Part shown: positions 20,270 to 33,825 of the stretch, in pieces
Numbering within the stretch: the first letter of the stretch is position 1
Layout: the number at the start of each line of letters is the position of its first letter
The notes under the pieces: model-generated
What the model saw: only the letters and a program-made list of their open reading frames with translations
What the model was told of the DNA's origin: nothing
The model's database searches: none
Program-made: the position numbers and the translations under genes
From: Patescibacteria group bacterium
Lineage (GTDB): Bacteria > Patescibacteriota > Patescibacteriia > UBA2591 > UBA4787
Reading direction: 5' to 3'
DNA length: 33,825 nucleotides
Assembly (NCBI GenBank): GCA_028715115.1
Contig: JAQUSN010000002.1
Span: forward strand, 274,816-308,640

Positions 20270-20545
20270 ATCAGGTAGTAGAGGTTTGACAAATTAACTG
20301 AATAAATTAGTTAATTTAAGTCTAAACTTTAAATTACATATTAATAATCAAACAAGTGGTGCCAAGTAGTTTCGACTTAGGTGGTCGAAAAATAGTCAAA
20401 CTTTCCCTGCCTACCGGCAGGCAGGACTACCTGACATGTCAAAATTATAAAAAATTTAAATTTGCCGCACAGCGATGAAAAAAATTTTATGACAAACAAG
20501 ATTAAAGATTCTAAATTGTTACGCACCTGTCCGCCTGCTACACGA
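20270..20545. repeat. Intergenic block with inverted repeats
   Basis: This gene-free stretch holds TCAGGTAGT (20271-20279) matched inversely by ACTACCTGA (20426-20434), the hairpin AAATTAACT/AGTTAATTT (20291-20317), and a near-perfect CCTGCC...GGCAGG palindrome at 20406-20425. The outer arms could be ends of a small non-autonomous element. No promoter for proS is clear. Confidence 0.45.
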
Positions 20546-21979
20546 CTACCGGGCGCACCGAAACCCAATGCTAAAGTACGAATCACCCGCACCCCAACTC
20601 ACGCGCAAGCTGAACACCCCGGCGTCAGCCGCATTAGGCCAAGGCCCGCCACGGATGCCCACGCGCGCGGTGGTAGCAGCCGAGTTAGAATTGTCGTAAA
20701 TCTTGCCCACTCCGTTAGCCGAATTCCAGGCATCATCAGAAGGACGAAAGACGGCCTTGCCGTCAGTGTAGCCGGTGGTAAAAGTGTTGGCGCCATTGTT
20801 GTTCAGGGCAGTAAATTCATAGTAGTTCCAACCTGAAACATCGTCATCGTCTGGCTGGTCCAATTCCTGATGGGTGGCGTCAGCGCCAGAAGGCGTAAAA
20901 GACACGTGTTCCCAGACATTACCGGAGATATCCCAAATAGTTGAACCATTAGACAGGGTCAGCATGGCTTTGGAGTTTCTGCCTAAACCTTTCTCCGGAT
21001 CAGCGCCATTGTAGCTGGCTGAATCGGAAATACCGACATTGCCTCGTTTTAAACCGCCGCCTGAAGCCACGGTGGAACCGATCTGGCTATTGGCCCAGTT
21101 TGAACTAACCTGTTCCGCGTCGCGGGCAATGGCCATCCATTCGTCATTGGTAATTAAGTGATAGCCGGTCGGGCAAGCCGAAAGAGCGTCAGTATGAGTA
21201 ATACCGGCAATGGGTGACCCTTCTGGAGAAGAAACCACTTTATTACCATCTTTATCGGTTTTATTCCAATCATAAGTATCGTAAAGTACATCTACTCTGT
21301 GGTCTGCATCTGCGTCATTGCCTATGCCGTCTCCATCAGAATCATATTTAGCCTCATACTGAAAAACATAGAAACCGGTTTTGCCATTGAGGACTGACCC
21401 AGCGCGATCAAAATAGTAAGCGTTGTTATTGTTTCTAGAGACTAAAATATCTCCTCTGGTTAATTGGTTGGCATTGTTACCGCCATAGACCTCGTAAGAA
21501 GTAGTTTCCTGGCCACCGTCATTAATAGCCGGGGCATAGTTGCTTGATTCAATATATGTCGAGATATGGTATTGGGAGCCTGAATTAGCCGTACGATACC
21601 AATAGCAGTGATCAGGGTAAACTGTATCTTGGAAGAGTGGGTCTTTGGGGATTTGGGCCATATATGAACTCATCAAAGTGGCAAAGTCAGTTGATTGCTC
21701 AAGGCAAAAACCATAGCTTGAATCGCTACTACTGGGACCAATGGCACCATTAGGATAGGAACCGCTGTCAGCCAGGTAAAGTTCCAGAGTAGTAGAAAGA
21801 GATTTTAGGGCTTGGGCCCGTTTGGCGTCTCTGGCTTTGGCCAAAGCCGGCGTAATACTGAAAACGGCAAAAGCAGTCAAGAGACCAATGATGGCAACCA
21901 CAATCAAAAGTTCGACGAGAGTAAAAGACCGTCGATGAGATGATTTTTGAAAATAAAAAAACTTCATGAAATGATTCAT
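20546..21979 (-). CDS. DGR target: type IV pilin-like protein with FGE-sulfatase/C-type-lectin domain
   Basis: This 477-aa surface protein has a class III-like prepilin signal, SFTLVELLIVVAIIGLL, with Phe19 as expected residue 1 and Glu23 as residue 5. A pilin alpha helix follows to about residue 70, then a linker with DSDGDGIGNDADAD (calcium-binding-like, 213-226). The C-terminal FGE-sulfatase fold (about 228-477) shows YHLITNDEWMAIARDAE and WDISGNVWEH. The last 41 residues (from about 437) are the variable repeat, ending in the DGR-type GFRCAR stop. DGRs use this fold to display diversified ligand-binding loops. It is inserted between rseP and proS and has a near-identical paralog at the right edge. 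The start at 21979 is the first Met; Met5 is possible. Surface export by type IV pilus machinery is inferred. Confidence 0.88.
   Translation of the reverse strand: MNHFMKFFYFQKSSHRRSFTLVELLIVVAIIGLLTAFAVFSITPALAKARDAKRAQALKSLSTTLELYLADSGSYPNGAIGPSSSDSSYGFCLEQSTDFATLMSSYMAQIPKDPLFQDTVYPDHCYWYRTANSGSQYHISTYIESSNYAPAINDGGQETTSYEVYGGNNANQLTRGDILVSRNNNNAYYFDRAGSVLNGKTGFYVFQYEAKYDSDGDGIGNDADADHRVDVLYDTYDWNKTDKDGNKVVSSPEGSPIAGITHTDALSACPTGYHLITNDEWMAIARDAEQVSSNWANSQIGSTVASGGGLKRGNVGISDSASYNGADPEKGLGRNSKAMLTLSNGSTIWDISGNVWEHVSFTPSGADATHQELDQPDDDDVSGWNYYEFTALNNNGANTFTTGYTDGKAVFRPSDDAWNSANGVGKIYDNSNSAATTARVGIRGGPWPNAADAGVFSLRVSWGAGDSYFSIGFRCAR
20547..20669 (-). repeat. DGR variable repeat VR1
   Basis: The 123 bp align without gaps to the template-like repeat at 32026-32148. 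On the coding strand about 21 of 32 template adenines differ, against about 21 of 91 other bases (hand counted). 11 of the 12 template Asn codons are replaced (Pro, Pro, Asp, Ser, Arg and others). The GC-rich end TGCGCCCGGTA is conserved, as expected for the initiation-of-homing site. Confidence 0.85.
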
Positions 21980-31619: not shown

Positions 31620-31725
31620 AATTAAATGACAATGTTGATTAATTTTCCAGCCACAAAAATAATTTTTTTAATTGGCTCACATAATTAATACTTTCAAAAG
31701 CCCATTGGCCCTAAGGAAAAATTTA

Positions 31726-31868
31726 GTCCCTCACCCAGAAATTTTGATTGATTTTTCAGACAGACCATTAATAACCATAATTTCTAGGCGAATCTGTCTG
31801 CTATTCTAACTAATTTAAAAAGCAATAAAATCAATCCATGGTCTGGCTAAAATTTCTGGGTGAGGGAT
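31726..31868. mobile_element. MITE-like inverted-repeat element (143 bp)
   Basis: The ends match as inverted repeats over 20 bp with one mismatch at the first base: TCCCTCACCCAGAAATTTT on the left and its complement on the right. A TA dinucleotide flanks each end (31724-31725 and 31869-31870), as in Tc1/mariner/IS630-type insertion. Inside is a second inverted pair, CAGACAG/CTGTCTG. The outer AAAGCCC (31697-31703) and GGGCTTT (31891-31897) are also inverted and equally distant. No open reading frame of note. Confidence 0.6.
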
Positions 31869-31933
31869 TACTTTGATCCCTTAAGGATGCGGGCTTTTTG
31901 ATTTCCCTGTTCGGTCAAACCTCTAGCTGCCAT
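31868..31933 (-). CDS. Possible 21-residue ORF at the reverse-transcriptase position
   Basis: ATG at 31933 opens MAARGLTEQGNQKARILKGS and ends at a TAA that is partly made by the flanking TA of the MITE-like element. It is basic. No Shine-Dalgarno sequence is seen, and it has no recognised match. It may be the head of a gene cut by the insertion, or chance. Confidence 0.2.
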   Translation of the reverse strand: MAARGLTEQGNQKARILKGSK

Positions 31934-32025
31934 TATTTTTGATCTACTAAGGAGAGGAACGAAATCCGTAGTCTTCTGACGCTGGCTCATGCCCGTAGGC
32001 ATTTTGCTCTGGCCAGAAAAAAGAG

Positions 32026-32148
32026 TACCGGGCGCATCGCAACCCAATGTTGTTGTTCGAATTCGACGTGTTATAGTTCAAGTTCAAGTTGAACGCTCCG
32101 GCATTGGACCCATTGTTCCAGTTACCGCCACGAATGAACACGTGAGCG
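32026..32148 (-). repeat. DGR template-like repeat (TR)
   Basis: Read on the minus strand, this 123-bp repeat contains 12 AAY (Asn) codons within 33, such as GGNWNNG, FNLNLN and NSNNNIG. Adenine-rich codons are the hallmark of templates for adenine mutagenesis. It aligns end to end with VR1 and VR2, and its 3' end has the shared TGCGCCCGGTA. In place of the VR stop TAG it reads TAC, so no target ends here. It starts 20 nt after the avd stop. Its reading frame is probably never a protein. Confidence 0.85.
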
Positions 32149-32168
32149 CTTTGACTTTGTCCCTTTGA

Positions 32169-32504
32169 TTAACAGCTGCTCTTCAGCCAACCGCCGAGCA
32201 TTTTGCCGATTTCATTAATTTTCTCCGCGGTCAGGCTATATTGTTTGAGACTGACAAATTTCAAGTCCTTGCTTAAACGAATTAAAATTCTTAATTTATC
32301 CAAGTCAATACTAGCTTGCTTAAGATAAGCCGTCTTGTTTCTTTCCGCGTTGGCCTGGATAATGGTTTTCAAAACTTCCAAAATCGTATTCTCTATCTGC
32401 TGACCCAGCACAAATCGCTGCGATTTGGGGAATTTGTTAATTACCGGATGCAACCAGAGAATTAAATCGTAAATTTTTTGAAAAATAGGCAAACTTTGAA
32501 GCAT
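32169..32504 (-). CDS. avd: DGR accessory variability determinant (Avd), four-helix-bundle protein
   Basis: This 111-aa, all-helical, basic protein belongs to the Avd/23S rRNA-IVP fold. Diagnostic segments are LPIFQKIYDLILWLHPVINK, FPKSQRFVLGQQIENTILE, LKQASIDLDKLRILIRLSKDL and the C-terminal INEIGKMLGGWLKS. Avd forms a pentameric barrel that binds the template RNA and the DGR reverse transcriptase and is needed for mutagenic cDNA priming. Here it is directly followed by the template, as in typical avd-TR-RT cassettes, but no RT follows. The start ATG at 32504 has no Shine-Dalgarno sequence. Confidence 0.93.
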   Translation of the reverse strand: MLQSLPIFQKIYDLILWLHPVINKFPKSQRFVLGQQIENTILEVLKTIIQANAERNKTAYLKQASIDLDKLRILIRLSKDLKFVSLKQYSLTAEKINEIGKMLGGWLKSSC

Positions 32505-32533
32505 TATTTTAGTATTTCTTAAAAAATAAAATC

Positions 32534-32542
32534 TGTGGATAA
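32534..32542 (-). promoter_or_regulatory. Single DnaA-box-like site upstream of avd
   Basis: TGTGGATAA (TTATCCACA on the minus strand) occurs exactly once, 30 bp before the avd start. Its role is unknown and a chance match is possible in this AT-rich genome. Confidence 0.25.
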
Positions 32543-32590
32543 CTTTATTGATTAGGTTTCGCCCTGTGTTATACTAAACTATAGATAAAC

Positions 32591-32660
32591 AAGTCCTTTG
32601 CTAGCGAAAGTCGGCTTCACGCCGTGCTTCCGAGTAATCGGAACTAGCTACAAAGGGCTT
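32591..32660. ncRNA. Candidate structured RNA element at the end of the DUF3800 gene
   Basis: AAGTCCTTTG (32591-32600) pairs with the segment ending CAAAGGGCTT (32651-32660), and CTAG (32601-32604) pairs with CTAG (32644-32647), leaving a 3-nt bulge. Inside are CGGC-TTCAC-GCCG (32612-32624) and TTCCGA-GTAA-TCGGAA (32628-32643; GTAA is a GNRA loop on the plus strand). It is a three-way-junction-like fold that overlaps the DUF3800 stop codon. Structured RNAs have been described beside DUF3800 genes in bacteria; whether this is one is untested. Confidence 0.4.
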
Positions 32661-33409
32661 ATTTTATTTAGATCAAATTTATTTTTCTGATTATAAAAAT
32701 TTTTTGGGTATTTATTAAAGTCATAAATGTCCACTAAATAAGATATCTTCTCCATCATGAAGTTTAAAAACCTTGTTTCCTTTTTTATAAATGCCCGCTG
32801 AACCGCCCAATTCATATAATCTATAACCTGTAGACAAGGTTCACCAATGGGTGTTTGCACTTTAATATCATAATCAGTATTAATTTTTTTATCCCACTTT
32901 TTCTCAAATTTTAACCTTGCTTTTATAACTGCATTCTCTATAGGCTCTTGTCTCTTCCTGTCCCCTCGCTGCGCGAAATAAATTTTGCTATCTTGCTTGT
33001 GCAGTTTATTTTCAAATAATTTTATTATCATATCATCATAAAATTCTTGTATCTTGCGATGGTGGCGTTTAATAAAAATATCTTCTTTTTTACGAGCAAC
33101 AATAAATTCAGCCTTAAAATTTAAATTGATCAATTGTTTAAAAACCTTTTCTCTTATCTCTGGACAATCATCTTTGGCGTGAAAATAAAGTAAAGACTTT
33201 TGTAATGAAGGAATCTCTTGAAAATATTTATCAGCGGCAATTTCGCTTCTTAATTTTTCTAAGGCCACCCTGATTGGTTTCGGATCGTCTGTGCGCATTA
33301 AACCAATTAATAAGATTGGCGAACAGCCAGGACGTCCCACGATCACCCTACCTACTTTATCGTAAAAAACTGGATCGCCTGATTCGTCGACAAAATAATG
33401 GGTCAACAT
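32648..33409 (-). CDS. DUF3800 domain protein
   Basis: The 253-aa protein starts MLTHYFVDESGDPVFYDKVG with the typical DESGD motif (Asp8, Glu9, Asp12). It has LLYFHAKDDCPEIREKVFKQL in the centre and CLQVIDYMNWAVQRAF (Asp near 203) in the last third, the signature of DUF3800. The fold is RNase H-like by analogy; its function is unestablished, and members often accompany mobile elements and phages. It sits between the DGR target paralog and avd, so it may have travelled with them. Confidence 0.85.
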   Translation of the reverse strand: MLTHYFVDESGDPVFYDKVGRVIVGRPGCSPILLIGLMRTDDPKPIRVALEKLRSEIAADKYFQEIPSLQKSLLYFHAKDDCPEIREKVFKQLINLNFKAEFIVARKKEDIFIKRHHRKIQEFYDDMIIKLFENKLHKQDSKIYFAQRGDRKRQEPIENAVIKARLKFEKKWDKKINTDYDIKVQTPIGEPCLQVIDYMNWAVQRAFIKKETRFLNFMMEKISYLVDIYDFNKYPKNFYNQKNKFDLNKISPL

Positions 33410-33471
33410 AAATTATAATTTATAGAAATTTTTGAATTTTGAGGGGCTAAGACAAAGTCTCAATCCAACCC

Positions 33472-33485
33472 GCCCGCTGGCGGGC
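33472..33485. repeat. Hairpin downstream of VR2
   Basis: GCCCG-CTGG-CGGGC is a 5-bp stem about 25 bp past the VR2 stop. DGRs often carry a hairpin or cruciform just after the VR that boosts homing. VR1 has no equal counterpart at this distance. Confidence 0.4.
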
Positions 33486-33508
33486 CAAATACCAAATATC
33501 TACGGGGA

Positions 33509-33825
33509 CTACCGGGCGCAGCGAAAACCAACACTGCCGCCCGAATTCGACGCGCTCCAAGTCAAGTCCAAGTCGAAGACCCCGGCATTCGACGTATTGC
33601 TCCAGCTGCCGCCACGAATGAACACGTGAGCGGTGGTAGCAGCCGAGTTAGAATTGTCGTAAATCTTGCCCACTCCGTTAGCCGAGCTCCAAGTATCGTC
33701 AGAAGGACGAAAGACGGCCTTGCCGTCAGTGTAGCCGGTGGTAAAAGTGTTGGCGCCATTGTTGTTCAGGGCAGTAAATTCATAGTAGTTCCAACCTGAA
33801 ACATCGTCATCGTCTGGCTGGTCCA
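33509..33825 (-). CDS. DGR target paralog (FGE-sulfatase domain), 5' part outside the window
   Basis: The last 104 residues and the stop at 33509 are visible. From DQPDDDDVSGWNYYEFTALN the protein runs identical to the 20546-21979 target (about residue 375 on) except DDTWSS where the other copy has DDAWNS. The diversified tail is TAHVFIRGGSWSNTSNAGVF through to GFRCAR and stop. It should carry the same prepilin signal upstream, beyond the edge. The gene is read leftward into DUF3800. Confidence 0.85.
   Translation of the reverse strand, partial: DQPDDDDVSGWNYYEFTALNNNGANTFTTGYTDGKAVFRPSDDTWSSANGVGKIYDNSNSAATTAHVFIRGGSWSNTSNAGVFDLDLTWSASNSGGSVGFRCAR
33510..33632 (-). repeat. DGR variable repeat VR2
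   Basis: Without gaps to the template-like repeat, about 16 of 32 template adenines and about 11 of 91 other bases differ (hand counted), with most adenine changes A to G. 9 of the 12 Asn codons changed. The first 25 bases on the coding strand, GCTCACGTGTTCATTCGTGGCGG plus flanks, are shared with the template but are altered in VR1, so VR2 is closer to this template. Confidence 0.85.

Follow-up and report, generated by a model that had tools for sequence, protein, structure and literature searches.

One of the closest described systems for the locus discussed here is the diversity-generating retroelement (DGR) of Bordetella phage BPP-1, comprising a reverse transcriptase (bRT, with structures of the 8ub7 series), the accessory protein Avd, a template repeat (TR), a variable repeat (VR), an IMH and a hairpin. 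The hairpin behind the VR is needed for efficient BPP-1 homing (PMC3240598), and inactivation of avd lowers the activity of the BPP-1 DGR in E. coli to about 1e-9 (PMC12875486). The reverse transcriptase (RT) found in the present work is related to that of BPP-1 (phmmer E=1e-44), and Avd, adenine-specific differences between TR and VR and a hairpin 3' of the VR are likewise shared. The loci differ from BPP-1 in the position of the RT, which is located 5' of the target in the family to which the present cassette belongs, or divergently from avd in most loci of the class, as well as in the presence of simple-repeat tracts in avd or RT, which are a feature of these loci.

Clade 2 of the DGRs classified by Roux et al. 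2021 is restricted to Patescibacteria (PMC8144416). The DGRs described here resemble this clade in being cellular, in occurring in very small genomes and in often being present several times per genome. Together with the genome sizes in the phylum sample (0.4-1.5 Mb), the restriction of this clade points to a patescibacterial host. Neither repeat tracts nor phase variation were found to be described for the Patescibacteria DGRs in the open-access papers searched. Incomplete and remote DGR loci have been described in Thiohalocapsa PB-PSB1 (PMC10907252); here the defects of the two cassettes differ from each other, and the RT probably lies in cis. Templating in trans has also been published (PMC10907252) and is thus not new by itself.

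Simple-sequence contingency loci are known from Neisseria, Campylobacter and Haemophilus (e.g. PMC6321876, PMC5084427). Their likeness to the loci treated below lies in poly-G/C, di- or tetranucleotide tracts inside a gene or at its 5' end, in repeat units that are not divisible by three, and in mixed frames. Contingency loci mostly switch surface structures or modification enzymes, whereas here a gene for a targeted mutator would be switched. Little is known about the regulation of DGRs. If the mutator were always active, good variants would be lost again.

The cassette at the contig end

The window, i.e. the whole stretch of 33,825 nucleotides that was analysed, corresponds to C2:274816-308640, where C2 is contig JAQUSN010000002.1 (308,640 bases), and its right edge is the end of C2. 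Read on the minus strand from this edge, the order is the VR1 target gene, of which only the 3' part is present, a DUF3800 gene, avd, TR and then tmk (Table 1). A second target gene, containing VR2, is located 11.5 kb from this contig-end cassette. A preliminary description of the sequence had proposed a TR with 12 asparagine codons, a neighbouring Avd and the two VRs, all of which were confirmed by translation, Pfam and NCBIfam profiles and repeat comparison. It had also pointed out that an RT is lacking from TR to tmk, and indeed no frame of at least 60 codons exists between tmk and the TR-containing ORF. The avd of the window is without a repeat tract, and an Rfam scan of the window gave nothing at the gathering threshold.

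Contig C2 ends inside the VR1 target gene, and its final 127 bases recur without a mismatch in the VR2 gene. Since the contig is cut at this point, the absence of an RT from the window does not mean that the cassette has none; a contig end can make a cassette look like a satellite without RT.

Table 1 Features of the contig-end cassette and the second target (window positions) and of the paralogous cassette (contig C2 positions)
Feature	Position	Strand	Remarks
VR1 target gene, 3' part	33509..33825	-	Open at window edge; 5' part beyond contig end
VR1 (variable repeat)	33507..33632	-	78% to adjacent TR
Hairpin 3' of VR1	33464..33489	-	By folding: 11-bp stem, 4-nt loop (AGCG)
DUF3800 gene between target and avd	32648..33409	-	Pfam DUF3800 E=1e-6
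avd (DGR accessory protein)	32169..32504	-	NCBIfam DivGenRetAVD E=1e-36, above cut-off; Pfam bAvd E=2e-28
TR (template repeat)	32023..32148	-	Encodes GGNWNNGSNAGAFNLNLNYNTSNSNNN, 12 Asn codons; repeat family D2
Second target gene, complete	20546..21979	-	Prepilin-type N terminus, Pfam N_methyl E=2e-6
VR2	20544..20669	-	66% to window TR; probably inactive as target now
C2-start RT	C2:3005-4100		Split by frameshift at (AG)10
C2-start target	C2:4097-5563		In paralogous cassette, after RT
C2-start small gene (X)			Between target and avd of paralogous cassette
C2-start avd	C2:6270-6605		89% identical to window avd
C2-start TR	C2:6626-6751 (C2:6615-6774 as matched to the window TR)		92% to window TR

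Templating of the variable repeats

The adjacent TR and VR1 differ at 28 positions, 16 of which are TR adenines (hypergeometric P=4e-5), a concentration that indicates a pair beyond chance. The TR of a paralogous cassette at the start of C2 shows 15 differences with VR1, 13 of them at A (P=5e-8), and 17 with its own VR, 16 of them at A (P=3e-11). Such adenine-specific differences, found for the C2-start TR against both VRs, are among the features by which a DGR is recognized, as are an Avd scoring above the DivGenRetAVD cut-off, the IMH-type difference that all VRs display near the 3' end (G where both TRs have C), and the hairpin behind VR1.

The two TRs differ from each other at 13 sites. 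Since VR1, like the C2-start VR, agrees with the C2-start TR at all 13 of these diagnostic sites, it was last written from that TR or from an identical one hidden in the assembly gap, most simply in trans. Gene conversion with the paralogous target as donor of VR1 was dropped as an explanation. In the 193 bases before the VR, the VR1 gene shows 97% likeness to the VR2 gene, while its likeness to the C2-start target upstream of the VR amounts to 84%, right up to the VR edge, where the close resemblance to the C2-start cassette stops.

VR2 has 42-43 mismatches to either TR, half of them not at A, and it lacks the 11-bp hairpin that follows VR1 and the C2-start VR in identical form; for these reasons it looks like a retired target.

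Position of the reverse transcriptase gene

In the paralogous cassette (C2:3005-6830) the order is RT, target, small gene, avd and TR. The expectation that an RT should directly follow the TR is therefore probably wrong for this family, in which the gene is found 5' of the target. Searches of the genome for DGR-type RTs and for further copies of the TR, as recommended earlier, yielded four RT loci and the second TR of Table 1.

One of these RTs is found at the start of contig C3, which on the minus strand reads leuS, an open RT of 384 codons and the first ~120 bases of a target, followed by the contig break. It belongs to the same family as the C2-start RT and carries YMDD and GLPIGNLTSQ. It has ATA where the C2-start paralogue has ATG, it contains an insert of about 40 residues, and its expression may be poor. 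Structure prediction from the single sequence gave a mean pLDDT of 34.7, and a search for close relatives yielded two distant matches in GTDB contigs and none in IMG/VR. Contig C1 starts with lysS, an RT remnant reading MKTYSHIFP (the first nine codons, followed by a stop) and then the same target 5' end as at the C3 start, so that an RT-deleted target copy is present there.

The starts of C1 and C3 have exactly 127 bases in common, and the ends of these contigs also overlap by exactly 127 bases. The contig ends are exact 127-mers common to the target genes, as is to be expected of an assembler with k=127 at repeated target genes. The end of C2 must run on either into the start of C3, which places the RT in cis, or into the start of C1, where the RT is deleted. 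Under either join, GC skew in sampled stretches shows one minimum at ~C1:205 kb and one maximum at ~C2:190 kb. The replichore arms are ~395/392 kb if C2 is joined to C3 and 464/323 kb if it is joined to C1, as worked out by hand from the sampled skew table, with switch points good to ~15 kb. This balance favours the join to C3, which we consider very probable, and an RT in cis with the window cassette is a likely, if not proven, arrangement. A comparison of the gene order of tmk, leuS and lysS in relatives gave no decision on the join, as the order is not conserved.

The preliminary description read the cassette as an RT-less satellite or remnant, which would hold literally if the end of C2 were joined to the start of C1 and the C3 RT served in trans. 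The 127-base target 5' end at C1, preceded by the RT remnant, fits such an arrangement, as do the presence of the other cassette's template in VR1 and the precedent for trans templating elsewhere (PMC10907252). However, it implies the unequal replichores given above, and the target behind the C3 RT would be one of which Avd and TR are missing from the assembly. A truly RT-less cassette is thus unlikely, and the RT is rather to be expected beyond the contig end, where the open family RT of C3 would follow. The accompanying suggestion of an RT acting in trans retains some value, in view of the other DGR RTs in the genome and of a VR1 whose latest template was identical to the TR of the other cassette, but for the RT of the window cassette itself a location in cis is likely.

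The target copies at the starts of C1 and C3 face outward and, with C1 and C3 joined, form inverted repeats at the two ends of a segment of ~480 kb. This segment could be inverted by recombination between the two copies, by which the RT would pass from one cassette to the other.

Repeat tracts in avd and RT genes

The C3 RT contains an (AG)17 tract and is in frame, whereas the C2-start RT has (AG)10 at the same place and is out of frame; these are the only AG tracts of at least 10 units in the genome. Repeat tracts are common in related loci. In a class sample of 114 DGR-type RT loci they were found in 67, with 62 located at the junction (within 75 bases of the RT start) and 5 inside the RT, the latter being under-counted because selection of the loci by RT score works against broken RTs. 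Elsewhere in these 114 loci, from -2000 to +3000 relative to the RT start, only three comparable non-AT repeats occur, which are poly-G at L064 +1053, L076 -310 and L100 -357. These three poly-G tracts are possibly located in target genes.

In 100 of the 114 class loci avd is divergent from the RT gene, with the starts side by side, and in divergent loci only tens of bases separate the conserved avd and RT cores. The junction tract belongs to the 5' coding end of avd, where it separates an upstream ATG from the conserved core of the protein. On the RT strand most junction tracts read G9 to G15. The same site can be occupied by (GA)n and (ATTG)n, and (CT)n and pentanucleotides were found in addition in the phylum sample (genomes of 0.4-1.5 Mb). 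Of 99 tracts in all samples, the unit length is 1 nt in 69, 2 nt in 26, 4 nt in 2 and 5 nt in 2, and never 3 or 6.

The second tract site, found in another part of the RT tree, is the RT loop that precedes the GLPIGNLTSQ motif. In a search of the phylum, many RT matches broke near model position 182. As a test of the predicted RT-loop tract, 20 loci with broken or partial RT matches were picked before looking at their sequence, and all 10 RTs that were in two frames near the break had a dinucleotide tract at the split. The frame-shifted RTs are otherwise intact on both sides of the tract. Alignment to the RT of PDB 8ub7, which we take to be the BPP-1 bRT, shows that this enzyme is shorter at both loops, which indicates that the loops tolerate changes in length.

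Among close homologues the tract site persists while the repeat differs. Two avd homologues that are 89% identical have (CAAT)7 and C12 at the same site, another pair, 87% identical, has (CT)18 and (TC)20, and on the RT tree the tract state has changed ~30 times. Such repeated turnover of both site and unit suggests selection for a switch and not for a given sequence. A conserved poly-proline or RNA motif was dropped as an explanation of the tract, as the units and the encoded residues differ and the frames are broken.

Among DGR loci from IMG/VR, in which avd is mostly upstream and in the same direction, a junction tract was present in 0 of 80. In view of this number and of the only three simple repeats elsewhere near the class RTs, chance low complexity was dropped as well. 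Poly-G tracts of at least nine total 176 in the 48 genomes with tract-bearing DGRs, and in 14 of these genomes the DGR tract is the single one. The other three such poly-G tracts of the host genome, at C1:202930, C2:63178 and C2:183755, may mark further phase-variable genes.

Frame states and a proposed switch for hypermutation

Variation in the tracts was seen between close homologues, with one genome per species. Of the 58 tract-bearing avd genes, 24 have the upstream start in frame and 31 have it only out of frame, where it should be kept in mind that homopolymer length in draft genomes can be wrong by one base; the frequency of 24/58 does not differ from one third (P=0.21). Tractless avd genes, on the other hand, are in frame in 37 of 41 cases (Fisher P=6.8e-7), and the out-of-frame genes keep an intact core. 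The loci thus share two features of contingency loci, namely a slippage-prone coding tract with a unit that is not a multiple of three, and in-frame as well as out-of-frame states among homologues, for both avd and RT. The positions, unit lengths and mixed frames of the tracts are plain from the sequences.

These results can be combined in a single explanation, which as a whole we regard as probable. The window would hold an ordinary DGR from the target 3' end through DUF3800 and Avd to the TR, with its RT 5' of the target just past the contig end, most likely the RT that begins C3. The two paralogous cassettes would share parts, the C2-start TR, or an identical TR within the gap, having been the latest template of both VR1 and the C2-start VR, and of the two family RTs only that of C3 is now in frame, the C2-start RT being broken at (AG)10. 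The (AG)n tracts would be contingency tracts, in which strand slippage alters the number of units and shifts the frame, so that Avd or RT, and hypermutation with them, are turned off and on reversibly. Since Avd and RT are each needed for retrohoming, gain or loss of units would indeed have this effect. That slippage takes place in living populations and affects diversification is what we infer. The broader proposition, that DGR hypermutation is phase-variable throughout the phylum, with a repeat in avd or in an RT loop that randomly toggles a targeted mutator, appears to us well founded enough to be held with good, though not full, confidence. No paper joining DGRs with repeat-tract phase variation was found in the open-access literature, of which the coverage was incomplete.

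A different role of the junction tract can be envisaged in transcription, where its length would set the spacing in overlapping divergent avd/RT promoters, as in hif of Haemophilus. The divergent arrangement in most class loci, the short distance between the cores and the location of the tract in both 5' regions are in agreement with this. However, the second-site tracts are within the RT reading frame, where the frame matters, and most tract-bearing loci have an avd ATG upstream that reads through the tract in some frame. As the sole explanation, an effect on transcription is therefore improbable, and frame and promoter spacing could both be affected at once.

Homopolymers can promote transcriptional slippage. 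Programmed slippage by RNA polymerase or the ribosome would allow some Avd or RT to be made at any tract length, so that the tract would merely cause a fixed lowering of expression, and the intact core of out-of-frame avd genes would be explained as well. Tetra- and pentanucleotide tracts and long dinucleotide tracts, however, are poor sites for programmed slippage and classic sites for replication slippage, and no fixed frame is kept. We regard this possibility as improbable. Decay or misassembly, with the tracts as neutral debris in frame-shifted RT and avd genes, is improbable as well. The genomes are metagenome drafts, and some genes contain further stops (e.g. G041). Decay, however, would not explain why two sites recur as the places of tracts in dozens of genera, with varied units of which none has a length of 3 or 6; moreover, tractless loci are in frame in 37 of 41 cases, and the rest of the frame-shifted RTs is intact on both sides.

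If phase variation of hypermutation is real, a slippage-repeat switch would be an answer to the question of DGR regulation for a large group of cellular DGRs. A population would keep both cells that are still diversifying the target and cells that hold a proven variant, and two mechanisms for generating diversity, contingency tracts and DGRs, would be joined in one system. Copies that are switched off would be overlooked, or taken for decayed, in DGR surveys that demand an intact RT or Avd frame. The tract switch can be tested from existing reads.

Other elements of the host genome

A palindromic element of 146 bp, with a 22-bp outer stem and a folding energy of -47 kcal/mol, is located at window positions 31724-31869. 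Two further copies, making three in the genome, are found at C2:131833-131983, beside a third DGR, and at C1:216976-217118; the element is absent from Rfam and looks MITE-like. The third DGR itself (C2:132212-134651) has C10 in the 5' end of avd, which is in frame, and a TR and VR that differ at 9 positions, 7 of them at A.

Head to head with the C2-start cassette, a second, unrelated DGR is present at C2:6999-10936, which consists of an RT, a divergent avd without tract, a TR and two targets. One of its VRs agrees well with the TR, 14 of the 17 differences being at A, and the other poorly. Around this pair of DGRs, at C2:1-2106 and C2:11227-12561, there are phage-like genes (by reading, amidase-like and holin-like) and a large serine recombinase that resembles CcrB, which suggests that the C2-start pair is part of a mobile element.
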